DNA from: Leucobacter sp. Psy1
GTDB lineage: Bacteria; Actinomycetota; Actinomycetes; Actinomycetales; Microbacteriaceae
Assembly: GCF_020096995.1 (NCBI RefSeq)
Contig: NZ_CP083692.1
Coordinates: 124,001-188,000 of the forward strand
Direction of reading: 5' to 3'
DNA length: 64,000 nucleotides
Part shown: positions 5,859-51,473 of the stretch, in pieces
Numbering within the stretch: the stretch's first letter is position 1
How the letters are laid out: each line of letters opens with the position of its first letter
Translations under genes and position numbers: made by a program
The notes under the pieces: generated by a model
The model's input: the letters and a program-made list of their open reading frames with translations, nothing else
Told to the model about the DNA's origin: nothing
Database searches by the model: none

Positions 5859-7786
<1,928 letters not shown>

Positions 7787-9824: not shown

Positions 9825-9842
9825 CGTCCGGGGTGGCTGACG

Positions 9843-24485: not shown

Positions 24486-24496
24486 GAACGTTGTTC
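24486..24496. promoter_or_regulatory. Candidate TetR operator dyad
   Basis: GAAC-GTT-GTTC (24486-24496) is a short palindrome in an AT-richer stretch of the 182-nt gap between the TetR gene and the divergent APC permease gene. Position and symmetry suggest an operator; no functional proof. Confidence 0.35.
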
Positions 24497-24571
24497 ATTT
24501 TGCCGGCGCGATCCGACGATGGATCCTGCTGCTCACTATCGGCATCTGCCGCTGTATTCCAGGAGTTCCCC

Positions 24572-36031: not shown

Positions 36032-37183
36032 TCACGCCCAACCAACGACTAGGCGGGCCGCTTGCTGCGGGATGAAGGGGTCGATGCCGGTGAGCTTCGC
36101 GAACCGTCCGAGCCGATTGGTGAGCGTGTTGCGGTGGCAGTAGAGTCTCGCGGCGGAGGCGCTGACGCTCCCGGTGACGAGATAGTCTCTGACCGCATCG
36201 GTGAGCCGTTCCCGTTCGGCCTCTCCGCAGTTGTCCAGTGCGCGATCCACATCTGCGATCACGGGGTGGCCGGCGTGTGCGAGGTGTTCATGGGCGACTC
36301 TGGCCCAACCGCGTTGCCAGGTCATTGCGTGGGCGTCGTCCGGGCCGAGGGCTTGAGCGAGAACCCGTGCCGTCGTGGCCGACTCGTGGACGTCTTCGAG
36401 GCCGCGGGGCGCCTCGAACACGCCGACTCTATGATCGACGATGCCGCGGGAGAACGTCTCCAGCCGTGATCCGGGATAGTGCGCGGACCGGGTGAATGCG
36501 ATGAGCGTGTCACCGAGGTGGTGGGTGAGAATCGTGGTGCCCGCCCGCTCGCCCTCGGCGATGAGGACGCGGAGGGCGGGGATGTCGTCTCCGATCGCGG
36601 CCACGACGAGCAGGGGCTCGTCGTGGGGGAGTTCGAGGTCCTCTCCGATCTGCGCGAGTTGGACCTCGGTCGGGCTCGGGGATTGGAAGAGGCGCGCGAT
36701 CAGCCCCTGTCGGACGGACGAGGCCTCCTCGCGGATGCGGTGCAGCTCGGACATGTAGGCGCTCTGCGCCTGCCCCGCATACTCGTCGACAGCGGCGAGG
36801 ACGACCCCGGCTCGTCGTACGAGGAGAGCGGCGTCCTCGGGAGACGCCACTTCGGCGATGGCGTGCCAGAGGACCGTGAAATCGAGGCGGATGGCGGTCA
36901 TGAGCGAGGTGATCGGGATGCCGGCCCGCGCTCGAGTCACGCCGACTTCGCGGGCCGCCGGGAGGAACTCCTCGACATCTTCGGAGCGGAGGCGGTTCAG
37001 GAGCGCGGCGAAGGTGAGCTTACCGGTGCGCAGTATCTCGGTCATCGGGACGGGCGGAGGGTCGTAGTCCGGCACGGCTCGCAGGAGCGTCGTGAAGCGG
37101 TCGGCGAGCACGCGTGCGTCGAGCCGATCGACGAGAGCGCACCACCGCTCGTGGTCTGCGGTGTCGGGGCTTTCCGGGGGCAC
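36032..37183 (-). CDS. PucR/CdaR-type helix-turn-helix regulator
   Basis: A 383-residue regulator. The N-terminal and central parts are an all-helical sensor followed by a GGDEF-like fold, as seen in the PucR family. The C-terminal HTH_30-type motif is LYCHRNTLTNRLGRFAKLTG, preceded by LTDAVRDYLVTGSVSASAAR. PucR itself activates purine catabolism in Bacillus; family members control uptake and breakdown of diverse nitrogen compounds. The GTG at 37183 is chosen, since TATCAT on the minus strand (37195-37190) would give a leaderless start there. Divergent from the MHS symporter operon at 37339. Confidence 0.88.
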   Translation of the reverse strand: MPPESPDTADHERWCALVDRLDARVLADRFTTLLRAVPDYDPPPVPMTEILRTGKLTFAALLNRLRSEDVEEFLPAAREVGVTRARAGIPITSLMTAIRLDFTVLWHAIAEVASPEDAALLVRRAGVVLAAVDEYAGQAQSAYMSELHRIREEASSVRQGLIARLFQSPSPTEVQLAQIGEDLELPHDEPLLVVAAIGDDIPALRVLIAEGERAGTTILTHHLGDTLIAFTRSAHYPGSRLETFSRGIVDHRVGVFEAPRGLEDVHESATTARVLAQALGPDDAHAMTWQRGWARVAHEHLAHAGHPVIADVDRALDNCGEAERERLTDAVRDYLVTGSVSASAARLYCHRNTLTNRLGRFAKLTGIDPFIPQQAARLVVGWA

Positions 37184-37213
37184 ACCGTCATGATATGTGC
37201 AGATGCACTGTTT

Positions 37214-37253
37214 GTGGGCCTGAAAGAGCGAAGAATGCCCACCTCAGATGGGC
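37214..37253. promoter_or_regulatory. Overlapping inverted repeats in the pucR-type/MHS divergent gap
   Basis: GTGGGC (37214-37219) faces GCCCAC (37237-37242), and the same GCCCA also pairs with TGGGC (37249-37253). Two overlapping dyads sharing one half-site suggest alternative binding positions for the PucR-type regulator. Inference. Confidence 0.35.
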
Positions 37254-37338
37254 GATGTGCCACCTAGGCTCGAACACGTGGGCGAGCCGGCCCGCGCACC
37301 GAACCCAGCAGGAACGATCACGACCTCGACGGAGAGAC

Positions 37339-38670
37339 ATGACCGAGACGACCCCAACTGCGGCGATCGAATACGACGCCGCACAAGAATTGACCGTGAA
37401 GGACGCCAATAAGGTCGCTGTGGGCGCGCTGATCGGCACCGCCCTCGAGTGGTACGACTTCTTCCTCTTCAGCGCGGCGGCCGCGCTCGTGTTCAACGTC
37501 CAGTACTTCGCGAGCGAGAATGCGACGGCAGCCGCCCTCGCCTCCTTCGCGACGTTCGGTGTGGGACTCGCCGCTCGACCGCTCGGCGGCATCATCTTCG
37601 GTGCGATGGGGGACCGGATCGGCCGGAGGAAGGTGCTGATGATCACGATCGTCGGCATCGGGCTCGTGACCGGACTCATCGGAATGCTGCCGACCTACGC
37701 CGCGATCGGCATTGCGGCACCGATCCTGCTCGTGCTCATGCGCATCTTGCAGGGCCTGTTCGTCGGGGGCGAGTGGTCGGGCGCGATGACGATCGTCGTC
37801 GAGAACGCGCCCCTTCACCTGCGTGCGCGCTACGCGGCGATCCCGCAGATCGGCTCGCCGATCGGCACCATCCTCTCCTCGGGCGGCTTCTTCGTGATGA
37901 CGCTGCTCTTCTCGCAGGACAACTTCGACGCCTGGGGATGGCGCATCCCGTTCCTCATCGCGATTCCGATGCTGCTCATCGCGCTCTACATTCGCAGCCG
38001 CCTCGAGGAGTCGCCGGTCTTCCGGCAGCTGGAAGCATCGGGGGAGGTCGAGAAGAGCCCGGTCGCCACCACCTTCAAGAACAGCTGGAAGCACATCATC
38101 ATCGGTATGGCAGCGGCGCTGCTCGGCGTCGGCGGGTTCTACCTCGTCACCGCGTTCTGCGTCTGGTACGGCGTCAATGTGCTCGGGTACAGCTCGCAGC
38201 TCATGCTGCTCGGCAGCATGGTCGCCGCAGCGGTCGAGATCCCGGTGCTGATCCTGGGCGGCCGCCTCGGGTCCCGCTTCGGTGCGAGCAAGGTGATCAT
38301 CTACGGAGGCATCGCGTCCGCGGTCGTCGCATTCCCCGCCTTCATGCTGCTCGAGTCGGGCGTTCCGATGCTCGTGGTGCTCGGCATGACTCTCGCCGTC
38401 TCCGCACTGTCGTTCCCCTACGCGGCGTCGGGTACGGTGCTGACCGGCCTGTTCCCCGCCAAGACCCGGTACACCGGCGTGGGCATGGCGCAGAATGCCG
38501 CAGGTATGCTCTCCGGGTTCATCCCGCTGCTCGCCACCGGCCTCGTCGCTGCGGCATCCGACCACTGGTGGCCGGCGGCGCTGGTGCTCGTCCTCCTGTC
38601 AGTGTTCACCGCCTTCGCCGGGGTCGTCGCGCCCCGGATGAGCGTGAAGCTACCCGGCTTCAAGCACTGA
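37339..38670 (+). CDS. MFS metabolite:H+ symporter (MHS family)
   Basis: A 443-residue, 12-helix proton symporter. The N-terminus ALIGTALEWYDFFLFSAAA and the TM2-3 motif GAMGDRIGRRKVL are hallmarks of the MHS group that imports organic acids, betaines or related metabolites; RILQGLFVGGEWSGA is equally typical. The ATG at 37339 follows GGAGAG. It is the first gene of a five-gene operon with a ThDP enzyme, an amidohydrolase, an M20 hydrolase and a cupin, so it most likely brings in the substrate. The substrate is unknown. Confidence 0.92.
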   Translation: MTETTPTAAIEYDAAQELTVKDANKVAVGALIGTALEWYDFFLFSAAAALVFNVQYFASENATAAALASFATFGVGLAARPLGGIIFGAMGDRIGRRKVLMITIVGIGLVTGLIGMLPTYAAIGIAAPILLVLMRILQGLFVGGEWSGAMTIVVENAPLHLRARYAAIPQIGSPIGTILSSGGFFVMTLLFSQDNFDAWGWRIPFLIAIPMLLIALYIRSRLEESPVFRQLEASGEVEKSPVATTFKNSWKHIIIGMAAALLGVGGFYLVTAFCVWYGVNVLGYSSQLMLLGSMVAAAVEIPVLILGGRLGSRFGASKVIIYGGIASAVVAFPAFMLLESGVPMLVVLGMTLAVSALSFPYAASGTVLTGLFPAKTRYTGVGMAQNAAGMLSGFIPLLATGLVAAASDHWWPAALVLVLLSVFTAFAGVVAPRMSVKLPGFKH

Positions 38671-38717
38671 CGCCGACCCAACATCTCATTCGCACCGACC
38701 TGACAAGGAGCCGCACC

Positions 38718-40403
38718 GTGTCGCAGTCCGCCGGTCATCTCATCGTCCGCACGCTCGAAGCACACGGGGTCGAGCGTGTGTACGCCGTTCCCGGCGAGAG
38801 CTATCTCGATGTGCTCGACGGCCTGTACGACTCGGAGATCGACACGATCGTCTGCCGGCAGGAGGGCGGGGCCGGGTTCATGGCGCTCGCGGAGGGACGT
38901 CTTACCGGCCGGCCCGGCATCGCGATGGTCACCCGGGGGCCTGGAGCGGCGAACGCCATGATCGCAGTGCATACGGCGTGGCAGGATGCGACCGCCCTCG
39001 TGCTCTTCGTCGGGCTCGTCCCGGTTGCGGATCGCGAACGCGAAGCGTTCCAGGAGTTCAGTCTCAACGGCTGGTTCGGATCGACGGCGAAGCGCGTGCT
39101 CACGATCGACGACGCCGACCGTGCAGGCGAGCTCGTGGGCGAAGCAATGCGGATCGCCGCCAGCGGGCGACCAGGACCAGTCGTCGTCGGCCTGCCCGAG
39201 GACGTGCTGGTGCGGGCGACGGACGCCGATGTCGCCCCGGTGCTCGGTCAGGCGAAGCCCGCTCCCGACATCGGGGGCTTCGAAGAGCTCACTAGCCGTC
39301 TTGCCGATGCGGCCCGGCCGGCCATCGTGGTAGGCGGTGACGGCTGGGAGCGCGGTTCCGGCGCCGCCCTACTCGATTTCGCGGAGCGCGCCGGGATCCC
39401 CGTCTTCGCAGACTGGCGGGCCTACGATGCCGTGCCTCACCGCGGGGCCGCCTGGGCAGGCTGGCTCGGGTACGGTCGCGCCGACGCAGTGGTCGCCGGG
39501 TACGCCGACGCCGACCTGCTGATCTTCGTGGGTTGCGGGCGGTCGGACGTGCTGAGCGACGGGTTCACCCGTGGCATGGACACCGAGACGGTGGTGGTGC
39601 TGCCAGACCCCGATGCGAGAGTGCATGCCGGTCGACTCGACCAGCACCTCATCGCGACACCGGCGACGTTCGCCGAGGCACTCGACCGCACCGACGTCGC
39701 GGATGCGCGGGGCTCCCGCGACGACGGGTGGATGCGCGCGTGCGCCGAGCGACAGCGGAACGTCGCGGCGCACCGGCCGGACCGGTCGCCCGACTCGGAG
39801 CCGCTCGGTGTCGACCTCGGTGTCGCGTTCGGTCTGCTGGACGACCGGCTCGCCGGCGAAGCGACCCTGACCTACGGCGCCGGGAACGCGACGATCTGGC
39901 CGCATCGCTTCGTGCGGCATCTGCGCCCGGCCTCACTCGTGGGCGCCCGGAACGGGGCCATGGGCCTCGCCGTGCCGGCAGCCGTCGCGGCCGCGCTGGT
40001 GCAGCCGCATCGTCGAGTTGTCGCCGTGTGCGGTGACGGGGACTTCCTCATGAACGGGCAAGAACTCGCGACCGCCTTCGCGCACGCCGCCTCGCCCCTC
40101 GTCATCGTGGTCGATAACGGGGTCTACGGCACGATCGTGCAGCATCAGCAGCGCCACTACCCGGGTCGGCCGTCGGGCACCGGAATGACGAACCCCGACT
40201 TCGCCGCGTGGATGCACTCGTTCGGCGGCTTCGGCGAGCGGGTCGACCGCACCGAGGACTTCGAGGCCGCCCTCGACCGCGCGCTCGCCGCCGAGGGTCC
40301 TGCCCTTCTCCACCTGATGGTGGACGCGTCCGTCATGCCGCCGGCGTCGGACGAGATCCCGGTCGGGCGACCGGACCACGACGAGAACGGGGAGGACCGT
40401 TGA
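38718..40403 (+). CDS. Thiamine diphosphate-dependent enzyme (acetolactate synthase-like)
   Basis: A 561-residue ThDP enzyme with Pyr, middle and PP domains. The Pyr domain has YAVPGESYLDVLDGL and the catalytic Glu49 in CRQEGGAG; the middle domain and the PP-domain motif GDGDFLMNGQE (near 438) with VVDNGVYGT complete the fold. Glyoxylate carboligase lacks this Glu, so that assignment is unlikely. Candidates are a decarboxylase, carboligase or C-C hydrolase acting on a 2-oxo acid. GTG 38718 follows AAGGAG by 7 nt. Its stop overlaps the TTG start of the amidohydrolase gene. Confidence 0.85.
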   Translation: MSQSAGHLIVRTLEAHGVERVYAVPGESYLDVLDGLYDSEIDTIVCRQEGGAGFMALAEGRLTGRPGIAMVTRGPGAANAMIAVHTAWQDATALVLFVGLVPVADREREAFQEFSLNGWFGSTAKRVLTIDDADRAGELVGEAMRIAASGRPGPVVVGLPEDVLVRATDADVAPVLGQAKPAPDIGGFEELTSRLADAARPAIVVGGDGWERGSGAALLDFAERAGIPVFADWRAYDAVPHRGAAWAGWLGYGRADAVVAGYADADLLIFVGCGRSDVLSDGFTRGMDTETVVVLPDPDARVHAGRLDQHLIATPATFAEALDRTDVADARGSRDDGWMRACAERQRNVAAHRPDRSPDSEPLGVDLGVAFGLLDDRLAGEATLTYGAGNATIWPHRFVRHLRPASLVGARNGAMGLAVPAAVAAALVQPHRRVVAVCGDGDFLMNGQELATAFAHAASPLVIVVDNGVYGTIVQHQQRHYPGRPSGTGMTNPDFAAWMHSFGGFGERVDRTEDFEAALDRALAAEGPALLHLMVDASVMPPASDEIPVGRPDHDENGEDR

Positions 40404-42061
40404 AGATCGACCTCATCATTCGGGCGCACGAGATCCTGACGCTCGACGACGCGCGACCGACCGCGACGGCGGTCGGCGTGCTGAACGGGCGCATCGTCGG
40501 CTTCGACGAGGAACTCTCAGACGTCGATGCGGTGCGGGTCGCAGACTTCGGGGAGGCGTGCGTGACCCCGGGGCTCATCGATGCGCACTGCCACACCGCG
40601 TGGTGGGGTCTCGGCCTGTCGGCGGTGGACCTCAGTGTCGTGCGCGGGATCGAAGCCCTCTACGCCGCCGTGGCAGATGAGGTCGACCGGCTCGACCGAG
40701 CGGGGGACGTCGGCGGTTGGGTGCACGGCACGGGTTTCAACCAGTCGCACCACGGTGGAGCCTTCCCCGATATCGCGAGACTGGACGAGATCACCGGTGA
40801 CCGCCCCCTCTATCTGCGGCACACCTCTGGCCACGCCTCGATCACGAACACGGCGACGCTGCGCCTGATCGGCGCCCTGGAGGCGGGGTTCGAGGATCCG
40901 ACGGGCGGGGTCATCGTGCGCGACGAGCACGGGCACCCGACGGGTCTCGTCGAAGAGGCTGCGCAGGGACTCGTGCAGGCGCTTCTCCTGCCGTACTCGA
41001 CCGATCGTCTGGTCGAGGCGCTCGATGCGGCGACGACGCGCTACGCCGCACAGGGAATCACGAGTTTCACCGAGGCCGGAGTCGGCGGCGGGTGGATCGG
41101 GCACAGTCCCGTCGAGGCAGCCGCGTACCGGACTGCGGCGAACACGGGCCGCCTCCACGCCCGTGCCCAGCTCATGCCCGCACTGGATGCCCTGCGCCCG
41201 CTCACTGCAAACGCCGATGACTTCCACGGGAACGGCGGAGGTGCAGGACTCGACCTCGGGGTCGGGTTCGGTTTCGGGGATGACCGCGTGCGGTTCGGGC
41301 ACGTGAAGGTCTTTCTCGACGGGTCCCTCCTCGGGACGACGGCGGCCGTCACGGAATCCTACTGCGGCCATGAGCACCGAACGGGGTATCTGTTGGATGC
41401 ACCCGAGACCTACCGTGAGCGCGCTCTCGCGGCGTATCGAGCGGGGTGGCCCCTCGCACTCCACGCCATCGGCGACGCGGCGATCGACCTCGCACTCGAC
41501 CTGATCGAAGAGGCGCAGGTCGCCTATGGGGTGGCGCCGGTGCCGTGCCGGATCGAGCATTTCGGTATCGCACGGCCGGATCAGGTCGAGCGTGCGGCGC
41601 GTCTCGCGATCGCGGTGACCCCCCAAGCCGGTTTCATCGGACCGCTCGGCGATCAGATGGCATATCTCGTCGGGGAGGAGCGAGTGGGCTGGCTGTATCG
41701 CGGACGATCGGTCATCGACGCCGGTGTGATCCTCGCCGGTTCCTCCGACCTCCCGGTCGCCGACAACAACCTGCGGCGCGGCATGCAGGCCGCGGTCGAC
41801 AGGCGGACCGATTCCGGCGCCGTCCTGGCGGAGCGGGAGGCGCTCACGCCACAGGAGGCCTTGCGCACGCATACGGTCTGGGCCGCCCGCGCGACGGGCC
41901 TCCTCGCCGACCGGGGAACGCTCGAGCGCGGCAAGCTCGCCGACTTCACGGTCTTCTCCGCCTCGCCGCTGACGGCTTCCCGCATCGATGCGCTCGACAT
42001 CGTCGCGACCGTCGTCGGCGGGCAGTTCACGCACGATGCTCGAGAAGGGACCACGGCATGA
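40400..42061 (+). CDS. Amidohydrolase family protein (Amidohydrolase_3 type), TTG start
   Basis: A 553-residue TIM-barrel metal hydrolase, paralogous to those at 26029 and 48818. Ligand motifs: IDAHCHTAWWG (HxH), VKVFLDGS (Lys), LALHAIGDA, CRIEHFG and LAGSSDLPV (Asp). The start is the rare TTG at 40400 within TTGA, overlapping the ThDP gene stop, with GGAGG 4 nt upstream; no ATG or GTG gives a complete N-terminus. Its stop overlaps the next start (ATGA). It probably cleaves a C-N bond of an amide, carbamate or cyclic ureide-like substrate. Confidence 0.87.
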   Translation: MKIDLIIRAHEILTLDDARPTATAVGVLNGRIVGFDEELSDVDAVRVADFGEACVTPGLIDAHCHTAWWGLGLSAVDLSVVRGIEALYAAVADEVDRLDRAGDVGGWVHGTGFNQSHHGGAFPDIARLDEITGDRPLYLRHTSGHASITNTATLRLIGALEAGFEDPTGGVIVRDEHGHPTGLVEEAAQGLVQALLLPYSTDRLVEALDAATTRYAAQGITSFTEAGVGGGWIGHSPVEAAAYRTAANTGRLHARAQLMPALDALRPLTANADDFHGNGGGAGLDLGVGFGFGDDRVRFGHVKVFLDGSLLGTTAAVTESYCGHEHRTGYLLDAPETYRERALAAYRAGWPLALHAIGDAAIDLALDLIEEAQVAYGVAPVPCRIEHFGIARPDQVERAARLAIAVTPQAGFIGPLGDQMAYLVGEERVGWLYRGRSVIDAGVILAGSSDLPVADNNLRRGMQAAVDRRTDSGAVLAEREALTPQEALRTHTVWAARATGLLADRGTLERGKLADFTVFSASPLTASRIDALDIVATVVGGQFTHDAREGTTA

Positions 42062-43308
42062 CCCAGCAGGATGAGGCATTCCTCGCAGATTGGGCGGTGC
42101 ACTCGCAGTTCGGGGCCGTCGAGGGGACTCACGGTGTCGATCGGCAGGCCGCATCGACCGCGGACGGTGCGCAGCGCAAGTGGTTCGAGCGCTTGCTCGA
42201 GTCGCACGGGTTCACGGTGACGCGGGATGCGGTCGGCAACCAGTTCGGGCTGCTCGAACTCGTGCCGGGGGCCCCCTACGTGGTGACCGGTTCGCACATG
42301 GATTCCCAGCCGACCGCCGGCCGCTTCGACGGGGCGTACGGTGTCATGGCGGCCGCGCACGCCTGCTTCCGGGTGGCCGACGAGCTGCGCGCGGATCCGG
42401 CTGCAGCCCGGTTCAACCTCGCGATCGTGAACTGGTTCAACGAGGAGGGCTCGCGGTTCAAGCCGTCGATGATGGGGAGTTCCGTATTCACGGGGAAGAT
42501 GCCGCTCGCCGACGCACTGGCGACACGCGACCTCCAGGGTGTCTCGGTGCGTGACGCGCTCGACGAGATCGGTGAACGCGGTGATCTCGATGGCCTCGAA
42601 GTCGCCTCGTACGCCGAGATTCATGTGCAGCAGGGCCGCAGCATGGAGGAGGACGGGGTCACGATCGGGTTGGTCGAGGCGACGTGGGCCGCTCACAAGT
42701 TCGACTTCCGCGTAACGGGCGAACAGGCGCACAGCGGGTCCGCGCTCATGGCCGACCGGCGTGACGCGCTGCTCGGGGCCGCCCGCCTCGTCGTCGCGGC
42801 GCGGGAGCTCGTCGACGAGTTCTCGCCCGGAGAACTCCATACGGCGTGCGGCGAACTGAACGTCTACCCGAACTCACCGGTCGTCGTTGCGAGCGAGGTG
42901 CAATTGCTCCTCGACCTGCGATCCCCGAGCCCCGACGTCATCGCACGTGCGCACGCATCGCTCATGCTCACTATCGAGCGGGTGCAGCGCGAGGATCGCG
43001 TCGAGATCGAGATCGTCGGTGAGCACAGCTGGGATCAGAACCCGTACCCCGAGGCGGGCGTGGAGCTCGCCCGCCAGGTCGCGGAGGAGCTCGGGCTTGC
43101 GAACGACCGGGTGATGACGGTCGCCGGTCACGACTCGACGAACATGAAGGACAGCGTGCCGACGGTCATGCTGTTCGTTCCCAGCGTGGACGGGATCTCG
43201 CATAACCTGAAGGAGTACACCCGCGACGAGGATCTGGTCGCAGGCGTCGATCACCTCACTGGAGTGGTTCGGCGACTCGCGGCGGGTGCCCTGGTCGCGG
43301 ACGCGTGA
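42058..43308 (+). CDS. M20 family Zn-dependent hydrolase (N-carbamoyl-amino acid/allantoate amidohydrolase-like)
   Basis: A 416-residue dimetal hydrolase. GSHMDSQPTAGRFDGAYGV holds the first metal ligands, NEEGSRF the catalytic and bridging acids, and GVLEAT-like GLVEATWAAHKF plus GEQAHSG the dimerisation/substrate lid; AGHDSTNMKDS and GISHNLKEYT complete the site. This pattern is that of the hydantoinase/carbamoylase group (N-carbamoyl-L-amino acid hydrolase, beta-ureidopropionase, allantoate amidohydrolase). In this operon it may remove a carbamoyl group from the product of the preceding amidohydrolase. Start and stop overlap neighbours, so translation is coupled. Confidence 0.88.
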   Translation: MTQQDEAFLADWAVHSQFGAVEGTHGVDRQAASTADGAQRKWFERLLESHGFTVTRDAVGNQFGLLELVPGAPYVVTGSHMDSQPTAGRFDGAYGVMAAAHACFRVADELRADPAAARFNLAIVNWFNEEGSRFKPSMMGSSVFTGKMPLADALATRDLQGVSVRDALDEIGERGDLDGLEVASYAEIHVQQGRSMEEDGVTIGLVEATWAAHKFDFRVTGEQAHSGSALMADRRDALLGAARLVVAARELVDEFSPGELHTACGELNVYPNSPVVVASEVQLLLDLRSPSPDVIARAHASLMLTIERVQREDRVEIEIVGEHSWDQNPYPEAGVELARQVAEELGLANDRVMTVAGHDSTNMKDSVPTVMLFVPSVDGISHNLKEYTRDEDLVAGVDHLTGVVRRLAAGALVADA

Positions 43309-43340
43309 GACGCGCGGGAGCGCGAGGAGGCGAGGCCGAC

Positions 43341-43631
43341 ATGACCGGAGCGGCGCACGGGGAAGTGCAGGTCGAGAACGACCGGATGCGGGTCACCCGC
43401 TGGACGATCGAGCCAGGCGGTGCGATTCCTATGCACCGGCATCACCACGACTACGCGGTGATCCCACTGGTGACGGGCACGATGTTCGCGGTGGGCCCTG
43501 ACGGCGACGAGATCGTCGTCGAGCTGGAGCAGGGCAGCAGCTATGCGCGTGAGGCGGGTGCCGAGCACCGCATGGAGCATCGCGGCGACGGGGAGCCGAT
43601 CGTCTTCGTGGAGGTCGAACGGCTCGACTGA
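43341..43631 (+). CDS. Small cupin-domain protein
   Basis: A 96-residue single-domain cupin. The first motif IPMHRHHHDYAVIPLVTG supplies His ligands for a metal, and YAREAGAEHRMEHRG the second. Cupins of this size are usually isomerases, dioxygenases or metabolite-binding accessory proteins. The ATG at 43341 is preferred (GAGG upstream); GTG 43305 overlapping the M20 stop is an alternative. Last gene of the MHS/ThDP/amidohydrolase/M20 operon. Its precise role is unknown. Confidence 0.75.
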   Translation: MTGAAHGEVQVENDRMRVTRWTIEPGGAIPMHRHHHDYAVIPLVTGTMFAVGPDGDEIVVELEQGSSYAREAGAEHRMEHRGDGEPIVFVEVERLD

Positions 43632-43649: not shown

Positions 43650-45281
43650 TCAGGCGGCCCAGATCGGTTCGGGGCGCGAGGCGAGGAGGCGCACGGTGTA
43701 GGGGTCTTCTGGTGCGCCGAGGATCCGCGCGGTGCGGCCCTGCTCGACGACCCGGCCGCGCTGCATCACGAGCGTGTGCTCGCAGACCTGCGAGACGACG
43801 GCGAGGTCGTGGGTGACGAACACGATCGTGAGTCCCAGCTGCTCGCGCACTTCTTCGACGAGGGCGAGCACCTGAGCCTGGACCGAGACGTCGAGCGCGC
43901 TGGTCGCCTCGTCGAGCACGAGCATGGTGGGTTCTGCGGCCAGCGCCTTCGCGATCGCGACGCGCTGCCGCTGGCCGCCCGAGAGCGCTCGCGGTCGAGC
44001 GGGCAGGTGCTCGTGGCGAATCCCGACCCGCTCGAGCAGCGCTCCCGCTTCTCGCTCAGCGGTGGAACGGTCGAGCCCGCGGTGCAGCCGAATGACGTCG
44101 GATACCGATCTGCCGACCGGGACGCGCGGGTCGAGCGACAGATAGGGATCCTGGAAGACCATCTGCGTGTGCGCGGCGAACGCGCGCCGCTCCGCAGCTT
44201 TCAGCGGGCGGTCCGGTCGCGTGACGCCGTCGATCTCGAGGGTGCCGGCGTCTGCCTGCTCGAGTCCGACGAGGATCCGGGCGAGCGTTGACTTGCCCGA
44301 CCCCGATTCGCCGACGATGCCGAGCGACCCGCCCCGATCGAGCGTGAACCCAGCGTCGGAGAGTGCGATGACGTCGTCGCGGCCAGGGACGACGTACCGC
44401 TTCACGAGGCCCTCGGCGACGACGGCGGGCGTCCCGCTCGCGGTGCGCGCATCGTCGTCCCGCGCGCCGAGTGGTTCCGGTTCCGCGAAGCGGGTGAGAT
44501 CGATGCGGGGCGTGGCCGCGAGGAGGTCGCGCGTGTACTGCTGCTCGGGGTGCTCGAAGACCGTCTCGGTCTGGCCGGTCTCGACGATGCGGCCCCCCTG
44601 GAGCACGACGGTGCGCTCGCAGAGCGACGCCGCGAGTCCGAGATCGTGGGTGATGAAGAGCATGCCCATGCCGCGCGCCTGCTGCTGCTCGCGCAGCAGT
44701 TCCACGATGCCGGCCTGCGTCGTCACATCGAGCGCGGTGGTGGGTTCGTCGCAGAGCATCAGCTGGGGTTCGTCGAGCAGTGCTGCGGCGATCATGACGC
44801 GCTGCAGCATGCCTCCCGAGAGCTGGTGGGGGTACTGCTCCAGCAGGGCTTCGCCGCGGGGCAGGCCGACCTGCGCGAGCTCGTCGATCGCACGCGCGGC
44901 GGCGTCTCGTCGGTCGAGTCCGTGCCAGCGGATGAGGGTCTCGGTGAGGAAGTCGCCGATGCGTCTGACGGGATTGATGCCGGCGCGGGGATCCTGGAAG
45001 ATCATCGAGGCGCGCACGCGACGAATGCTCCTGAGCTGTTCCGCGTCGGCGGTGACGGTGTCGACACCCGCCACGCGAACGGAGCCCGTCAGGGAGGCCC
45101 GGTCGGGGAACAGGCCGAGTGCGGCCCGGGTCGTGAGCGACTTGCCCGATCCGGATTCGCCGACGAGCGCGACCGCCTCGCCAGCGTCGACGCTGAGCGA
45201 GATGTCGTGGAGGAGGGCGCCTCGGCCTGGCACTGCGAGGGTGAGGCCGTCGACGCTGAGCAGGGGGAGCGGTGCGGTCAT
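43650..45281 (-). CDS. Dipeptide/oligopeptide-type ABC transporter, duplicated ATP-binding protein
   Basis: A 543-residue fusion of two ATPase domains (DppD- and DppF-like). Each half has Walker A (GESGSGKS), signature (LSGGMLQR, LSGGQRQR), Walker B (LMLCDEPTTALD, LVLDEATSALD) and a switch His (FITHDLG, FVTHDLA). It energises import through the two permeases encoded upstream. The ATG at 45281 overlaps the permease stop (ATGA). Last gene of the minus-strand amidohydrolase/SBP/permease/permease/ATPase operon, convergent with the cupin gene 18 nt away. Confidence 0.94.
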   Translation of the reverse strand: MTAPLPLLSVDGLTLAVPGRGALLHDISLSVDAGEAVALVGESGSGKSLTTRAALGLFPDRASLTGSVRVAGVDTVTADAEQLRSIRRVRASMIFQDPRAGINPVRRIGDFLTETLIRWHGLDRRDAAARAIDELAQVGLPRGEALLEQYPHQLSGGMLQRVMIAAALLDEPQLMLCDEPTTALDVTTQAGIVELLREQQQARGMGMLFITHDLGLAASLCERTVVLQGGRIVETGQTETVFEHPEQQYTRDLLAATPRIDLTRFAEPEPLGARDDDARTASGTPAVVAEGLVKRYVVPGRDDVIALSDAGFTLDRGGSLGIVGESGSGKSTLARILVGLEQADAGTLEIDGVTRPDRPLKAAERRAFAAHTQMVFQDPYLSLDPRVPVGRSVSDVIRLHRGLDRSTAEREAGALLERVGIRHEHLPARPRALSGGQRQRVAIAKALAAEPTMLVLDEATSALDVSVQAQVLALVEEVREQLGLTIVFVTHDLAVVSQVCEHTLVMQRGRVVEQGRTARILGAPEDPYTVRLLASRPEPIWAA

Positions 45282-46150
45282 GAGAAGTTGCCTCCGATGC
45301 GGTCGGACAGTTCTTCGCCGATGATGTTGATCGCGACGACGACGAGCACGACGACGAGCGCCGGCATCAGGGTGGGCAGGAAGTGCCCGCCCATGAGCGC
45401 GCCGCGGCTCTCGTTGATCATGGAGCCCCAGTCGGCGGTGGGAGCCTGGACGCCGAGGCCCAGAAATGAGAGCGCTGCGAGGTCGGCGAGCACGTAGCCG
45501 AAGTTCAACGTCGACTGCGCGCCGACGGTCGGGAAGACGTTCGGGAGCACCCGGCGGAACGCGATCCAGGTGCTTCGGAACCCGAGCACGCGGTACGCCT
45601 GGACGTAGGGCCTGGACCGCTCCGCCACGATGAGGCCGCGCGTCAGCCGGGCGATGTAGGGGATGTACGCGATCGACATGGCGAGGATCGGCGCGAACAG
45701 TCCCTTGCCGAACAGTGCGACGGCGAGGATCGCGAGGAGCAGCGCGGGGAATGAGAACAGGAAGTCGAAGACTCTGGAGAGCGCGGCGTCGATCCAGCCG
45801 CCCCGCCACCCGGCCGTGAGGCCGAGCGCGATACCGACGACGGTCGACGCGATGACGACGATGAGCGGGCCGATGAGGGACGTGCGGGCGCCGAACATGA
45901 GCCGGGTGAGCAGGTCGCGGCCCAGCGCGTCGGTGCCGAGCCAGTGCGCGAGCGACGGGCCGGAGAGCACGCTTTGCAGATCGACGTAGTCGGGGTCGTA
46001 CGGTGCGATGAGCGGTGCGAACGCGGCTGCGAGAACGACGACGGAGGCGAACCCGAGAGCGATCAGCCCGAGCGGGGTGAGCAGGGCCCGGCGGCGCGGT
46101 CTCGGGGGCACGACGAGCGCCTGCGTGCCGGTGAGGGGGGCGATGCTCAT
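45278..46150 (-). CDS. ABC transporter permease (DppC/OppC-like)
   Basis: A 290-residue inner-membrane permease with a DppC-type N-terminal extension and about six helices. HWLGTDALGRDLLTRLMFGARTSL is the family hallmark, and the EAA loop region is YVQAYRVLGF with LPNVFPTV. It forms a heterodimer with the DppB-like permease encoded just upstream (overlap ATGA). Substrate class: di/oligopeptides or other amide-containing solutes. Confidence 0.94.
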   Translation of the reverse strand: MSIAPLTGTQALVVPPRPRRRALLTPLGLIALGFASVVVLAAAFAPLIAPYDPDYVDLQSVLSGPSLAHWLGTDALGRDLLTRLMFGARTSLIGPLIVVIASTVVGIALGLTAGWRGGWIDAALSRVFDFLFSFPALLLAILAVALFGKGLFAPILAMSIAYIPYIARLTRGLIVAERSRPYVQAYRVLGFRSTWIAFRRVLPNVFPTVGAQSTLNFGYVLADLAALSFLGLGVQAPTADWGSMINESRGALMGGHFLPTLMPALVVVLVVVAINIIGEELSDRIGGNFS

Positions 46151-47172
46151 CGGGTCTCCGTTCCTGCGGCGATCCTCGGATCGATCAGCGGTTGAATGAT
46201 GTCGACGATGGTGTTGACCGTCACGAAGGCGATGACGACGACGAGCACGATGGCCTGGACGACCGGGAAGTCGAGCCGGTCGACCGACTGCACGAGGAGG
46301 GAACCGATGCCGGCGAGCCCGAAAGTCTGCTCCACGATCGCGCTGGAGACGAGGAGCCCGGCGACGAGCACGCCGCTCACCAGCAGAATCGGGCTGATCG
46401 CGTTGCGGAGCACGTGCCGCAGCACGACCGACGGGCGTGTGAGACCGCGGCTTGTCGCGACCTCGACGTGCTCGCGGACGAACTGCTCGTTCATCGATGA
46501 TCGGGTGACCCGCGTGACGAGCGCGACGAACGTGAGGCCGAGCGCGAGGGCAGGGAGGATGAGGTGCACGAACCGGTCGAGCCCCTCGTCGCCGCTGCCG
46601 AACGAGGGGAACCATCCCAGTTGCACTGCGAAGATCGCGATGAGCAGGATCGCGATGACGAAGGACGGGATCGCGCCGAGCGCCGTGGAGACGACGAGGA
46701 TCACCCGGTCCGTGGGGCGCCCCCGTCTGAGGCTCGCGAGCACGCCGGCGGCGAGACCCAGTACGACGATGAAGACGGCGGCGAGCGCGACGAGCTCGAG
46801 GGTGACCGGCAGCCGCTGCAGGAGCACGGTGGAGACGTCGTCGCGGTACTGGAGGGAGCGGCCGAAGTCGCCCTGGAGGATCCCTCCGGCCCAGTTTAGG
46901 TACTGCTGGAGGGGAGGGAGGTCGAGCCCGTACTGGCGAGTGACCTCGGCGATGGCCTCCTCGCTCGGGCTGCGTCCGCGGAGGAGGAAGCGGGCGGGGT
47001 CTCCCGGCACGACGAAGCGCGAGAAGAACACGACGAGGGAGGCGGCGACGAGGGTCAGTGCGAGGCCGATCACACGCCCCGCGATGAAGCGGGCGGTGCG
47101 CCGCCAGCGTCCGGATGGTCGGGTCGGTCGGTCCTCTCGGATGCGCACCGCTCGCGTGGAAGTCTCGGTCAC
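46147..47172 (-). CDS. ABC transporter permease (DppB/OppB-like)
   Basis: A 341-residue permease. VVFFSRFVVPGDPARFLL and the extracytoplasmic YGLDLPPLQQYLNWAGGILQ with GDFGRSLQY are typical of DppB. The EAA motif is HVEVATSRGLTRPSVVLRHV-like, followed by FGLAGIGSLLVQSV. It begins at GTG 47172, overlapping the binding-protein stop. A basic 35-residue N-terminal extension precedes TM1. Confidence 0.94.
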   Translation of the reverse strand: MTETSTRAVRIREDRPTRPSGRWRRTARFIAGRVIGLALTLVAASLVVFFSRFVVPGDPARFLLRGRSPSEEAIAEVTRQYGLDLPPLQQYLNWAGGILQGDFGRSLQYRDDVSTVLLQRLPVTLELVALAAVFIVVLGLAAGVLASLRRGRPTDRVILVVSTALGAIPSFVIAILLIAIFAVQLGWFPSFGSGDEGLDRFVHLILPALALGLTFVALVTRVTRSSMNEQFVREHVEVATSRGLTRPSVVLRHVLRNAISPILLVSGVLVAGLLVSSAIVEQTFGLAGIGSLLVQSVDRLDFPVVQAIVLVVVIAFVTVNTIVDIIQPLIDPRIAAGTETR

Positions 47173-48821
47173 TGCTCGGCCCTCCCGATCTTCGCGGCCC
47201 AGGGGAAGTAGAGGTAGTTGATGGACGGATCGACGCCGGTGATGCGATCGCCCATCCAGACGGTCGCGGGCAGATCGAAGAGGGGGATCCACGGCAGCTG
47301 GTCGGTCGCGATGCGCTGCGCGTCCGCCGCGAGGGCGAAGCGTTCGTCGGCGTCGAGCGTGGCGACGGCGCGGTTCACGACGTCGTCGAACTCGGGGTCC
47401 GACCACTTGCCGTAGTTCGAGAACTCGTCGGTCCGCAAGACGGAGTACATCTCGAGGGGATCGGTGCTCGAGAGGTACCAGAGGGTCGTGAACATGTCGA
47501 CGCCCTCGATTGCGGCCGGGTCGGAGAACAGCAGTGTGTAGGCGTTCTGGGAGCGCGTGTCGATCTCGATGTCGAGCCCGATCTCCTTGCCGGCTGACGC
47601 CATCGCCTGCGAGACGACATCGAACGAGGGGTCGAGGGACGAGGTCGCGAAGACGATCCGCTCGCCCTCTGCGCCGGCCTCGCGGACGAGTTCGCGGGCC
47701 TCCTCGAGGTCGTAGTCGTAGTGGGCGATGTCGTCGAAAGCGCGCGCGCGGGTCGCGTCGTCGGCGTCTCGCCACACCGACTCGGGGGTCAGGGAGTCGG
47801 TGGGGGTGCCGTAGCCCTGCACGGCCGCTTGCGCGAGCGCCTCACGGTCGAGCGCCAGCGCGAGGGCGCGCCTGACGCGGACGTCACCGAGTGGACCCTC
47901 CATGTCTGAGATGACGATGCTCTGCACCGTCGCATTGGTGCCGAAGTACACGTTGCCGGTGTCGCTCGCGCGCATCGGGTCGATGGCGTTGGTCGGGATC
48001 GTCCACGCGCCGTCGATTTCACCGGTCTGGAGCGCGTTGACGCGGGCGTTCGCGTCGTTGAGGATCACGAACTCGACCTCGTCAGCGCGTGCGCGCAGGT
48101 CGGGGTCCCAGTAATCGTCGAATCGGGACATCGTGATCGACTCGCCCGACCGCCACTCCTCGAACTGGAAGGGGCCCGTGCAGTTCACGCCGGTCGACTG
48201 GTTGCCGTAGTCGGGGCCGGCCTCCTCAGTGCTGGCCGCCGACTGCACCACGCCTGGCGCCGCGGACATGAGCTGGTTGAACTGCGAGTCGGGCTCTGTG
48301 GTGCGGACCGTCACCTCGTGCTCGCCGGTCTGCTCGACCGACGCCACGTTCTGGAATGTGCTGTACCAGAACGACCCCACCTCGGGGTCGAGGTGACGCT
48401 GCAGCGAGACGACGACATCGTGGGGTGTCATCGTCGTCCCGTCGTGGAACTGCACGCCCTCCCGGATCGTGTAGACCCAGGTCAGCGGATCGGGGTTCTC
48501 GAAGCTGGTCGCGAGGCCTGGCGAGACGGAGAGGTCGGCGTTCCAGCGGAGCAGGGACTCGCACATGTTCGAGAGCACCGTATTGTCGGCGTAGTCGAAC
48601 GCGTACGCCGGATCGAGGGAGAACGGCTCGGTCGTGAGTGCCCAGGTGAACCGGTCGATGTCTCCGGCCGGCGCGGGGGTCTCGGCCGTCAGCTCGAAGG
48701 TGCCGGCGTGCTGCCCGATGGCGCTCTGCCCGCAGCCGGACAGCGCGAGAACCCCGACGAGGCTCACGGCGACGGCGATGCCGGTACGCGGGCGGCGGAG
48801 CGCGCCGTTCCGCCGCTTCAC
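47169..48821 (-). CDS. ABC transporter substrate-binding lipoprotein (family 5)
   Basis: A 550-residue extracellular solute-binding protein. The signal peptide (RTGIAVAVSLVGVLAL) ends in the lipobox LSGC, so it is lipid-anchored on the outer face of the membrane. FSLDPAYAFDYADNTVLSNM, VSPGLATSFENPDPLTWVYT and DVRVRRALALALDREALAQ are typical of peptide/nickel-type SBP_bac_5 proteins, which bind peptides, glycosides or opine-like amides. The GTG at 48821 overlaps the amidohydrolase stop (GTGA), an unusual order in which the hydrolase leads the transport operon. Confidence 0.93.
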   Translation of the reverse strand: MKRRNGALRRPRTGIAVAVSLVGVLALSGCGQSAIGQHAGTFELTAETPAPAGDIDRFTWALTTEPFSLDPAYAFDYADNTVLSNMCESLLRWNADLSVSPGLATSFENPDPLTWVYTIREGVQFHDGTTMTPHDVVVSLQRHLDPEVGSFWYSTFQNVASVEQTGEHEVTVRTTEPDSQFNQLMSAAPGVVQSAASTEEAGPDYGNQSTGVNCTGPFQFEEWRSGESITMSRFDDYWDPDLRARADEVEFVILNDANARVNALQTGEIDGAWTIPTNAIDPMRASDTGNVYFGTNATVQSIVISDMEGPLGDVRVRRALALALDREALAQAAVQGYGTPTDSLTPESVWRDADDATRARAFDDIAHYDYDLEEARELVREAGAEGERIVFATSSLDPSFDVVSQAMASAGKEIGLDIEIDTRSQNAYTLLFSDPAAIEGVDMFTTLWYLSSTDPLEMYSVLRTDEFSNYGKWSDPEFDDVVNRAVATLDADERFALAADAQRIATDQLPWIPLFDLPATVWMGDRITGVDPSINYLYFPWAAKIGRAEQ

Positions 48822-50503
48822 GCCGCGCCCCCGCGACGGAACAGGCGTTCGCCGCCGACCCAGGTCTCATCAACCCGAGCGTCATGCAGCTGCTCGGGTG
48901 GGAGGTCGAAGAGGTTGCGATCGATAACCGCGAAGTCGGCGTACGCTCCGGGCACGAGCCGGCCCGTGACGTGGTCGAGGTGATTCACGTAGGCGGTGCC
49001 CTGTGTGTAGGCGTCGAGCGCCTGTGCGAGGGTGAGGCGCTGCCGGTCAGGGCCGAGCGGACGGTGGTGCTCGCCCGGGCCGACGCGGTTCACCGCGACG
49101 TGGATCGCCTGGATCGGGTCGGGGCTCGATACGGACCAGTCGCTTCCCGCCGCGAGTCGGGCTCCCGAGGCCGAGAGTTCGCCGAAGGGGTAGTGGTGCT
49201 CTTCCGCGTCCGCGGCCATGAAGGGCAGGGTGAGCTCGTCGAGCTGATCCTCGTGGCACGCCCACAGCGCCTGGATGTTGGCGGTGGCACCGAGGGGCGC
49301 GAAGCGCGCGACGTCAGCCGACCGCACCACCTGCAGATGCGCGAGGTGGTGACGCCGGTCGCCCGGCCCGTTCTCGTGCAGCGCGCGCTCGACGGCGTCG
49401 AGCGCGTCGGTGACCGCTCGATCGCCGAGCGCGTGGAAGTGCACCTGCATGCCCTCGCGGTCGAGTTCGGACACGAACGCCGCCATGTCGGCGGGATCGA
49501 AGAAGGAGATCCCGCGGTTGTCGGTGGGGCGGCCGTGGTGATCGCGGTAGCACTCGTGCATCGCGGCGGTGAAGTTCTCGGCGACGCCGTCGACCATGAC
49601 CTTCACTGACGCGAGGGAGAAGCGATCCGGATCGCACGAGGCGGCCGCCTCGTCGCGGCGCGCAAGGATTCCGGCGAGCTGGGCGTCTCCGTCCTCCCGA
49701 TTCCACCACTGCGCGCCGCGAACCCGAACCTTGAGCGCTCCCTCGCGCACCGCCCTGAAGTAGACGGGAACGGTGTCAGGACTCCCCATGAACTCGCCGA
49801 CGGCCGCGTCCTGCCAGGCCGTGATGCCGAATCCCAGCAGGTGCTCCTGCGCGGCGAGGAGGCCGGCGTACGCCTCGTCTTCGGTCGCCATCGGGCGGAC
49901 CGTGTTGAAGAGGTTCATCGCCCCCTCGTGCGCCGTGCCCGCTGGGAATCCGTCGGACTCGCGCTCGAGACGGCCGTCGGAGGGATCGGGCGTCTCACCG
50001 TCGACGCCCGCGAGGTCGAGCGCCCGGGTGTTGACCCACGCCCCGTGGTGATCGCGGTTCTCCAGGAACACGGGCCGGTCGGGCACGACGGCATCCAGCA
50101 TGCCGCGCGTCGGGGTGCCACCAGGGAACGCATCCATCGACCAGCCGGCGCCGACGATCCAGTCGAGCTCCGGGTGGGCGTCCGCGTACGCGGCGACCGC
50201 GGCCACGGTCTCATCGGCTGTCGAGCACGCGGAGAGATCGCAACCGAGCAGCTCCATGCCCGCGAGGATCGGGTGGATGTGCGCATCCTGGAACCCCGGG
50301 GTCACGAGGCGACCGTCGAGATCGATGCGCAGGTGCGCGCCGGGGGCGAGCCTGGCGACCTCTTCGTCGTCCGTGCTCAGGACGCGTCCGTCCAGGATCG
50401 CGAGGCCCCCTCGCCGCGGGGCGGCGTCGCATCCGGTGTAGACCCAGCCGTTCTCGAGCACCACATCGGCGCGGGTGCGGTCGGTGGTCGGGGCAGTGGA
50501 CAT
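48818..50503 (-). CDS. Amidohydrolase family protein (Amidohydrolase_3 type)
   Basis: A 561-residue metal hydrolase, third paralogue of the window. Ligand motifs: FQDAHIHPILAG (HxH), VKVMVDGVAENFT (Lys), VHFHALGDRAVTDAL, HHLAHLQ and AAGSDWSVSSPD (Asp). FLENRDHHGAWVNTRAL corresponds to the substrate loop, changed from DANDFHSVWVNS in the 26029 paralogue, so the substrate is probably different. A strong GAGGAGG precedes ATG 50503. First gene of the ABC transporter operon, controlled from the divergent TetR operator region. Confidence 0.88.
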   Translation of the reverse strand: MSTAPTTDRTRADVVLENGWVYTGCDAAPRRGGLAILDGRVLSTDDEEVARLAPGAHLRIDLDGRLVTPGFQDAHIHPILAGMELLGCDLSACSTADETVAAVAAYADAHPELDWIVGAGWSMDAFPGGTPTRGMLDAVVPDRPVFLENRDHHGAWVNTRALDLAGVDGETPDPSDGRLERESDGFPAGTAHEGAMNLFNTVRPMATEDEAYAGLLAAQEHLLGFGITAWQDAAVGEFMGSPDTVPVYFRAVREGALKVRVRGAQWWNREDGDAQLAGILARRDEAAASCDPDRFSLASVKVMVDGVAENFTAAMHECYRDHHGRPTDNRGISFFDPADMAAFVSELDREGMQVHFHALGDRAVTDALDAVERALHENGPGDRRHHLAHLQVVRSADVARFAPLGATANIQALWACHEDQLDELTLPFMAADAEEHHYPFGELSASGARLAAGSDWSVSSPDPIQAIHVAVNRVGPGEHHRPLGPDRQRLTLAQALDAYTQGTAYVNHLDHVTGRLVPGAYADFAVIDRNLFDLPPEQLHDARVDETWVGGERLFRRGGAA

Positions 50504-50544
50504 GGGGCCTCCTCGGAACGGCTCATCGTTGATCCGTGAAGCAC

Positions 50545-50620
50545 ACACTAGGCGTGTGTCAACACGTATGTCAACAGCGATGACATTCGTGTTGACCCCA
50601 AATCCGATCCCGGGTCTAGA
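50545..50620. promoter_or_regulatory. 39-bp nested palindrome with overlapping divergent promoters
   Basis: GTCAACACG (50558-50566) and CGTGTTGAC (50588-50596) are perfect outer arms; ATGTCA (50568-50573) and TGACAT (50581-50586) are inner arms around a 7-nt centre. The outer right arm contains a TTGACC -35 for the TetR gene (a TCTAGA at 50615-50620 as -10), and TTGACA at 50574-50569 with TAGTGT at 50550-50545 forms a minus-strand promoter for the amidohydrolase operon. TetR binding here would block both. Confidence 0.7.
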
Positions 50621-50688
50621 CTGGCGGGAGTCCTCCACGAGGGGTGCTGCAGCGCTGATGGCGGCGGACGAGACACGGAGGTAATCCC

Positions 50689-51378
50689 ATGCCAGAGACC
50701 GTGGCGAAGCGGGTGCGTCTCGACCGCGAGCTCATCGTGGAGGCCGCGCTCGAACTCGCGCGCAGCGAACCGCACGCCGACGTCACGTTCCGACGGCTCG
50801 GTGAAGCGCTCGGCGTCGACGCGACCGCCATGTACCGGCATTTCCGAAGCAAGAACGAACTCACCCGTGCCGCACTCGACCGTCTCAGGGCGATGACGAC
50901 GGACTACGCGCGCAGCGTCCCTGGGACGTGGCGCGAGCAACTCGAGACGCACATGATGCGATTCGTCGAGGTCAGCCTCGAGTACCCGTCGATCGGCGCG
51001 CAGGCTGCGGTCATCGATCCGGTGGGCCCCGGCGACACCGGGACCGTCGAGTTCCTCCTCGAAAAGCTCACCGAAGCCGGCCTCGAGGGGGGTGCGCTCA
51101 TCCGGGCGTACGCCGCGCTCTCGGGGTTCGCTCTATCGCACGGTGCGGCCCTGGCGCACGAGGTCATGGTGACTCCGGGCGCCGCCCGCGACGGCTCGAT
51201 ACCCTGGATCAGTACGTTCGGCACCGTCAGGCTCTCCGACTATCCGTTCGTCGACGCGCACCGCGACGCACTGCTCGCCATCGACGGCGTCACGGTGTAT
51301 CGCGCCGGGATCGCGGCGATTCTCGACTCCGTCGAGCGGGGAACGGTCGCAGACGTCCGGAGCGGGCCGGCCGCGTAG
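50689..51378 (+). CDS. TetR family transcriptional regulator (TetR_C type)
   Basis: A 229-residue regulator. The HTH is at about 12-55 (IVEAALELARSEPHADVTF, RRLGEALGVDATAMYRHFRSK), and a long helical C-terminal domain carries the effector site. It is divergent from the amidohydrolase/ABC transporter operon with a large nested palindrome between, so it most likely represses that operon and itself. Upstream of the M20 peptidase gene on the same strand, with a 95-nt gap. Ligand unknown; presumably the transported compound. Confidence 0.92.
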   Translation: MPETVAKRVRLDRELIVEAALELARSEPHADVTFRRLGEALGVDATAMYRHFRSKNELTRAALDRLRAMTTDYARSVPGTWREQLETHMMRFVEVSLEYPSIGAQAAVIDPVGPGDTGTVEFLLEKLTEAGLEGGALIRAYAALSGFALSHGAALAHEVMVTPGAARDGSIPWISTFGTVRLSDYPFVDAHRDALLAIDGVTVYRAGIAAILDSVERGTVADVRSGPAA

Positions 51379-51473
51379 AACTGGAGCGCGCGGGGCTGCT
51401 CCCTTCCGGGGGTATCGTGGGGGTACGCGAGAGTGCGCCGGCCCCGGGTGCCGGCACGGGAGGAGTGTGGCGG

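Follow-up and report, generated by a model that had tools for sequence, protein, structure and literature searches.

Positions 36,032 to 43,631 of a 64,000-nucleotide stretch of the Leucobacter sp. Psy1 chromosome (hereafter, the window; the host genome is a single contig of 3.25 Mb) hold a coherent operon, which comprises a transporter, a thiamine diphosphate (ThDP) enzyme and two C-N hydrolases next to a divergent regulator, and which is conserved outside close relatives. The gene families are known; their combination, the predicted operator ahead of them and their changing layouts appear to be new. The first-pass annotation had known of no described pathway of this composition, and we likewise found no description of the gene combination in the literature searched, which was open-access only and could leave out work published in subscription journals. 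The features are as follows.

36032..37183, minus strand: PucR/CdaR-type regulator (HTH_30), divergent from the operon; assigned by reading frame and Pfam
37197..37208: predicted operator GTGCA-GA-TGCAC, an inverted repeat, 142 nt upstream of the transporter start
37339..38670, plus strand: MHS-like MFS symporter; ATG start; below the TIGR00883 cut-off
38718..40403, plus strand: ThDP enzyme, PRK08199 subfamily; GTG start; E49, R73, R411-N412, H476
40400..42061, plus strand: Amidohydro_3 (YtcJ-type) hydrolase, AH3; TTG start; H63, H65, H145, K303, H355, H387 and D450 invariant
42058..43308, plus strand: M20 amidohydrolase of the hydantoinase/carbamoylase family; ATG start
43341..43631, plus strand: small Cupin_2 protein, accessory; ATG at 43341, alternative GTG start at 43305

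Gene content and conservation of the operon

The reading frames, the divergent regulator and the 4-nt overlaps previously claimed for 38718-43308 are all present: the ThDP and AH3 genes share TTGA (40400-40403), and the AH3 and M20 genes share ATGA (42058-42061). A third overlap, GTGA at 43305-43308 between M20 and the cupin, is possible if the cupin begins at GTG 43305. Pfam cut-offs were exceeded by all proteins (HTH_30, MFS_1, TPP_enzyme N/M/C, Amidohydro_3, Peptidase_M20 and Cupin_2), in agreement with the identities proposed for the ThDP, Amidohydrolase_3, M20 and cupin genes. Two assignments stood in part. The regulator, designated PucR-type, has the C-terminal HTH_30 domain (46 bits, cut-off 27), but the Pfam search gave no match in it to PF07905, the N-terminal ligand domain of PucR. 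The best family for the transporter, designated an MHS symporter, is TIGR00883 (MHS metabolite:H+ symporters), but its score of 357 bits does not reach the cut-off of 443.45. The cupin had been counted in a five-gene unit. This unit was rejected because the cupin is seldom present among the relatives' loci (numbered with the prefix L): tblastn matches were confined to L005/L159 (same species), L152 and L046, although weak matches may escape detection when the protein is this short.

The ThDP protein was used to fetch 80 loci, the matches listed. Among these, the 42 closer loci (L005-L046) are all actinobacterial by title, and 41 of them (not L045) have an M20 or AH3 match; the 38 distant loci (L047-L084) have no PucR, AH3, M20 or cupin match, and L063 has a transporter match of 29%. 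Leucobacter tardus is the closest named relative among the matches listed, with 82% identity for the ThDP enzyme and 97% for the transporter. An M20 orthologue (at least 79% identity) was found in 43 of the 54 genomes of the genus. With the own genome included in each count, M20 was matched at E 1e-140 in 36 of 396 genomes of the order (9/110 genera), ThDP at E 1e-120 in 20 of 299 genomes of the family (9/85 genera), and AH3 at E 1e-100 in 2 of 396 genomes of the phylum, one being Psy1 itself. Judged by these counts, a few genera have the unit commonly, and outside them it is rare.

Thirty-eight of the 43 Leucobacter M20 loci were fetched, some of them truncated where a contig ends. No farther than 6 kb from M20, they carry ThDP (34 loci), AH3 (28), the transporter (32), a PucR-type regulator (32), Rid and RraA (8), and AH3 together with Rid (2). 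Related sets also occur in Arthrobacter, Cryobacterium, Pseudoclavibacter and Brevibacterium, and both gene overlaps, ThDP-AH3 as well as AH3-M20, are seen again in Cryobacterium (L017) and Arthrobacter (L023). The gene-neighbourhood search suggested in the first-pass annotation thus found the order in several genera, beyond close relatives; this recurrence is more than chance and confirms the gene set as first observed.

A predicted operator and changing layouts

The inverted repeat GTGCA-N2-TGCAC is common to the upstream regions of the relatives' operons, and we infer it to be the operator bound by the regulator. With at most one mismatch, it was present in 30 of the 38 gaps between PucR and transporter genes, whereas 200 first-order Markov reshuffles of the 38 gaps gave 0.43 on average and never more than 3, and in 28 of the 30 positive gaps it lies 137-162 nt ahead of the start of the transporter match. 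Over 65 loci (1.08 Mb), 25 exact copies were counted, whereas base-shuffled sequence would be expected to hold about one; by inspection, 23 of the 25 adjoin pathway genes. The split layout of L140 and L145 has separate sites ahead of ThDP, a copy precedes the transporter in L217, and in L235 the frame of an ArgE/DapE-type deacylase has one at its 5' end. The host genome contains the 14-base form exactly twice, once at the operon and once at G000:C1:1355519, within a coding frame (L278, position 6020). The same pattern with one mismatch occurred 9 times forward and 9 times in reverse, and the backward-read control gave 3 and 7; weaker sites therefore mean little. A stricter symmetric pattern matched in 14 of 54 genomes, 8 of which have the match at the operon by coordinates and the rest elsewhere.

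The extra genes in the relatives' loci were identified by Pfam and NCBIfam. Neighbour counts within 6 kb and an M20 tree were made for 64 of 70 loci, an M20 match of >54% identity being required. The following layouts were recorded.

PucR/MHS-ThDP-AH3-M20: as in the window operon
PucR2/MHS2-Rid-RraA-ThDP-M20: Rid and an RraA-like aldolase between transporter and ThDP
Split units: PucR, ThDP and 2-hydroxyacid dehydrogenase, plus MHS-AH3-M20
PucR/MHS-ThDP-M20: Brevibacterium; in L228, truncated at a contig end, an aldehyde dehydrogenase (ALDH) match lies within 6 kb
MHS-ThDP-ALDH-AH3-M20: L086 (Arthrobacter), L214, L215
PucR2/ALDH-ZnADH-sugar-type ABC-M20: L134, L148, L151; PyrC-like AH3 alongside in L134 and L148
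Family 3 solute-binding protein, AH3, M20 and class III aminotransferase: L220, L227
ThDP and AH3: ten Brevibacterium loci (L029, L032, L033, L035-L041)

A small set that recurs, PucR-MHS-ThDP-M20 in L210, L211 and L229, has no AH3, aminotransferase or dehydrogenase within 6 kb, and a 2-hydroxyacid dehydrogenase gene joins in 6 of the 64 loci. By clustering, the neighbours in the ten Brevibacterium ThDP-AH3 loci include an Orn/Lys/Arg-decarboxylase-like protein (10), a class III aminotransferase (9) and proline racemase (5). On the M20 tree (65 rows, with long branches for L230, L218 and L235), the Rid-RraA label requires 5 changes, at least 4 of them forced by well-supported branches, and the placement of all 11 Rid loci in one clade was rejected (p-AU 9.7e-48). 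Rid-RraA has therefore been gained or lost repeatedly, the frequency of each not being given by the tree. The RraA-like protein shows a distant kinship, with scores below cut-offs, to 4-carboxy-4-hydroxy-2-oxoadipate aldolase/oxaloacetate decarboxylase, an enzyme that works on 4-hydroxy-2-oxo dicarboxylates according to the excerpt of PMC5065237. The claim of a complete pathway thus holds as regards a coherent operon, but not as regards five fixed genes, as many loci lack AH3 or have it replaced, few keep the cupin, and genes that the window operon lacks, such as ALDH, join in other lineages.

Two further observations concern individual loci. In Brevibacterium loci such as L038 (6989-9811), a 940-aa Orn/Lys/Arg-decarboxylase-like protein adjoins the proline racemase, ThDP and AH3 genes. 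In L086, a plasmid of Arthrobacter sp. StoSoilB13, the transporter match at 7690-8995 consists of two overlapping pieces in different frames, and the gene may be broken.

A tentative proposal, which we consider rather more apt to fail than to hold, is a modular catabolic system in which a core of M20 and ThDP decarboxylase under one operator would convert amide-type acids to carboxy-semialdehydes, and exchangeable front ends would feed different nitrogenous acids into it. These front ends would be the AH3 enamide hydrolase, Rid with the RraA-like aldolase, 2-hydroxyacid dehydrogenase, or alcohol/aldehyde dehydrogenases. If true, the proposal would give a function to ThDP subfamily PRK08199, in NCBIfam merely 'thiamine pyrophosphate protein', and to the M20/AH3 pair, whose present labels are 'allantoate amidohydrolase' and 'amidohydrolase', and it would show actinobacteria re-wiring one catabolic core by module exchange while the operator stays the same. 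With the predicted operator and the small four-gene version at hand, the question is directly testable.

The enzymes and their possible pathway

The ThDP enzyme passes the NF006052 model of the PRK08199 subfamily (548 bits, cut-off 539) and misses that of glyoxylate carboligase (Gcl), TIGR01504 (107 bits, cut-off 711.2). The catalytic Glu is absent from Gcl. As had been claimed, it is kept here: E49 is present, and Glu occupies this position in 103 of 103 homologues aligned (113 loci supplied, matches of at least 450 residues retained), as do R73, H476 and R484 theirs. R411-N412 is found in 61 homologues, 57 of which have an M20 or AH3 match within 6 kb; such a neighbour occurs in 0 of the 39 with T or V at 411, and in one of the remaining three, which have KN or GN at 411-412. 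The excerpt of PMC10418658 describes a cyanobacterial alpha-ketoglutarate-specific ThDP decarboxylase that is paired with succinate-semialdehyde dehydrogenase (SSADH), and by motif offset H476 may fall at its docked alpha-ketoglutarate-binding Lys471.

ALDH genes lie within 2.5 kb of ThDP in 12 of the 38 distant loci, and in 0 of 38 at 4-9 kb, where some stretches are short. The ALDH directly after ThDP in L086 is aminobutyraldehyde-dehydrogenase-like (594 bits, just under the cut-off of 615), and an ALDH is found in the ThDP cluster of L214 and L215 as well. The best match is of the SSADH type in L217 and L047 (beside ThDP) and in L218 and L235 (beside M20); L087 has an L-piperidine-6-carboxylate dehydrogenase that scores above cut-off. 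From these ALDH types, a carboxy-aldehyde would be the product of the ThDP enzyme. By its gene neighbours, the enzyme is a candidate 2-oxo dicarboxylate decarboxylase.

The M20 protein passes TIGR01879, the hydantoinase/carbamoylase family (260.6 bits, cut-off 204), and NF006772, labelled 'allantoate amidohydrolase' (435.1 bits, cut-off 424), and misses TIGR03176, allantoate deiminase AllC (157.4 bits, cut-off 597.75). In an alignment with yeast beta-alanine synthase, the metal-ligand motifs and the Arg are conserved, and the Asn309 position is Val in 15 of the 16 M20 loci aligned and Ile in the host's own paralogue (50% identity). In the yeast enzyme itself, this Arg and Asn309 bind the substrate.

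AH3 scores 257 bits against PF07969 (Amidohydro_3, cut-off 29.7) and passes none of the NCBIfam models, those for allantoinase and dihydropyrimidinase included. Its 28.3 bits against allantoinase TIGR03178 (cut-off 357.85) uphold the claim that it is not of the allantoinase type. The HxH, Lys, His, His and Asp columns show no variation across 21 sequences, among them the amidohydrolase of plasmid p2MP, and like ligands are described for a PF07969 bile salt hydrolase in the excerpt of PMC13081902. AH3 is 42% identical, over 99% of the query, to the p2MP amidohydrolase, which sits among genes for an LLM monooxygenase, flavin reductase, RidA and SSADH. We take this cluster, of Arthrobacter sp. 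68b, to be the pyr pyridine-degradation cluster and its amidohydrolase to be PyrC, whose presumed substrate is an N-formyl enamine acid in the route to succinate semialdehyde. By the 42% identity alone, AH3 is a candidate PyrC-type enamide hydrolase. Two other systems were set aside as parallels: the 4-hydroxypyridine degradation of Arthrobacter, whose amidohydrolase belongs to PF01979 in the excerpt of PMC7356986, and piperine hydrolase, whose relatives named in the excerpt of PMC12753220 are PuhA and PuhB.

Related hydrolases are encoded elsewhere. At window positions 24257-27687 (plus strand), an amino-acid permease frame has a 4-nt overlap with a second Amidohydro_3 gene (552 aa), another import-plus-hydrolase pair. 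Dipeptide-type ABC transporter genes, a family 5 solute-binding protein and a third Amidohydro_3 gene (606 aa) lie at 43650-50638 (minus strand), faced by an M20/M20_dimer gene at 50928-52811 (plus strand); they form a separate hydrolase-transporter cluster adjoining the operon. Locus L121 of the host (G000:C1:2594000-2612000) has at 5384-10542 a LysR gene, an MHS-like transporter, an AH3 (41% identity to the one in the operon) and a luciferase-like monooxygenase, which together suggest a ring-cleavage cassette resembling the p2MP cluster. L122 (G000:C1:264000-281000) has LysR, an MHS-like transporter, the M20 paralogue (50%), an amidase, a full-length PucR, methylmalonate-semialdehyde dehydrogenase (MMSDH) and a class III aminotransferase, probably for a beta-amino acid route.

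The reading that we rank first, as a possible one held with limited confidence, is hydrolysis before decarboxylation. With the regulator acting at the predicted operator, the transporter would import an N-acyl or N-carbamoyl carboxylic acid of the enamide or ureido type. M20, AH3 or both would then cut the C-N bond and release an enamine, imine or hemiaminal collapsing to a 2-oxo acid, a step that Rid may speed in the Rid-RraA loci. This 2-oxo acid would bear a distal acidic group, and its decarboxylation by the ThDP enzyme would give a semialdehyde, for example that of succinate or malonate; an SSADH-like ALDH, encoded in the cluster in some lineages and elsewhere in the genome here, would oxidise it. 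Judging by the small set PucR-MHS-ThDP-M20, no transaminase seems to be needed between M20 and the ThDP enzyme, and hydrolysis may yield the carbonyl acid directly, as in the reaction of ureidoglycolate hydrolase. The Rid of the Rid-RraA loci fits an enamine or imine intermediate. Also in favour are the identity of AH3 to the p2MP amidohydrolase, the ALDH genes of the ThDP clusters, the M20 or AH3 neighbours of the enzymes with R411-N412, the motifs kept and the Asn309 position changed in M20, and the separate allantoin-glyoxylate island described below. Pantothenate, citrulline/4-ureidobutyrate, imidazole lactate, ectoine intermediates and other 2-oxo dicarboxylate precursors were weighed as candidate substrates, and the data favour none of them over the rest.

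A number of points weigh against hydrolysis first. It gives no reason for two hydrolases, and a Rid gene is no proof of an imine. Many loci lack AH3 within 6 kb or have it replaced (AH3 elsewhere in those genomes was not searched), and loci of the L134 type have M20 with alcohol and aldehyde dehydrogenases and no ThDP. The correlation of R411 with the neighbours tracks the family tree and is not independent, and among solved structures the ThDP enzyme is nearest to acetolactate synthases and BbmA. ALDH was found within 2.5 kb of ThDP in 0 of the 42 closer loci and at 4-9 kb in 5, some stretches being short, and all SSADH-type assignments are below curated cut-offs. The window operon has no ALDH gene, and a close ALDH partner in the host genome was rejected, as none of the 19 ALDHs found there is >40% identical to the Arthrobacter one. 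As for the operator, the motif was derived from part of the same sequences later counted, and 8 of the 38 gaps lack it (L133, L136, L141, L214, L215, L218, L230 and L086).

The reverse order, ranked second and somewhat unlikely, starts from an amide-bearing 2-oxo acid: ThDP would give an amido-aldehyde, ALDH an amido-acid, AH3/M20 an omega-amino acid and a class III aminotransferase the semialdehyde. The gene order ThDP-ALDH-AH3-M20 in L086, L214 and L215 speaks for it, as do the aminobutyraldehyde-dehydrogenase-like ALDH of L086, the position of AH3 and M20 beside an aminotransferase 73-76% identical to a PRK06062 member in L220, L221 and L227, the family 3 solute-binding proteins of L220 and L227, and the host M20 paralogue in L122 near MMSDH and a PRK06062-type aminotransferase (56%). 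However, the small sets lack both ALDH and aminotransferase within 6 kb, and Rid and RraA are given no obvious role.

The pathway first proposed, in which ring opening of a cyclic ureide by AH3 would be followed by loss of the carbamoyl group through M20 and ligation of the product by ThDP, is unlikely, although M20 scores over the cut-offs of hydantoinase/carbamoylase-family models and the pairing of hydantoinase with carbamoylase is a known logic. AH3 passes no NCBIfam cut-off, and M20 and ThDP occur in loci without a nearby AH3. Moreover, the host chromosome has a separate allantoin-glyoxylate island, L280 (G000:C1:3205000-3222000), in which allantoinase (560 bits), Gcl (1120 bits), tartronate-semialdehyde reductase and glycerate kinase are all above cut-offs and an allantoin-permease-like gene scores below. 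Because the canonical allantoinase and Gcl genes sit there, the supposed resemblance to purine/allantoin breakdown is weakened, and that route was rejected for the operon. The first-pass interpretation as a whole is partly supported.

Carboligation, in which ThDP would join two carbonyl compounds freed by the hydrolases and the 2-hydroxyacid dehydrogenase or RraA-like aldolase would handle the product, is just as improbable. Gcl and acetolactate synthase join two carbonyl compounds, and it is the kinship with acetolactate synthases and BbmA that lets this chemistry be considered, together with the 2-hydroxyacid dehydrogenase gene of the six loci; the ALDH neighbours in several lineages and the failed Gcl model argue against it. 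The least probable explanation is that AH3 and M20 act independently, each as the entry hydrolase for its own conjugates, sharing transporter and regulator and having no common intermediate: AH3 occurs without M20 in the stretch in the ten Brevibacterium ThDP-AH3 loci, and M20 without AH3 within 6 kb in some loci, but the genes overlap here and in other genera downstream of one predicted operator.

Comparison with known systems

The cyanobacterial alpha-ketoglutarate decarboxylase with SSADH resembles the favoured pathway in that a ThDP 2-oxo acid decarboxylase, here predicted, is followed by a semialdehyde dehydrogenase, a likeness drawn from the motif offset and the description in the excerpt of PMC10418658. 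The allantoin-glyoxylate-tartronate semialdehyde pathway also combines an M20 amidohydrolase with a ThDP enzyme near a PucR-type regulator. Unlike it, the operon has AH3 in place of allantoinase and a ThDP enzyme that keeps the Glu and is not Gcl, and the genes of that pathway lie elsewhere on the chromosome. The reductive pyrimidine (N-carbamoyl-beta-alanine) route shares the M20 family, the metal-ligand motifs and the Arg of beta-alanine synthase, whereas the window M20 has Val at the Asn309 position and the operon is without a dihydropyrimidinase-type gene. The hyu hydantoin-utilisation clusters of Arthrobacter follow the same logic of a cyclic-amide hydrolase with an M20 carbamoylase, but no hydantoinase model is over cut-off in the operon, which adds a ThDP enzyme. 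Although the operon is without the monooxygenase and SSADH genes of the p2MP pyr cluster and adds M20 and ThDP genes, that cluster has the amidohydrolase akin to AH3, and it also carries RidA and SSADH genes.

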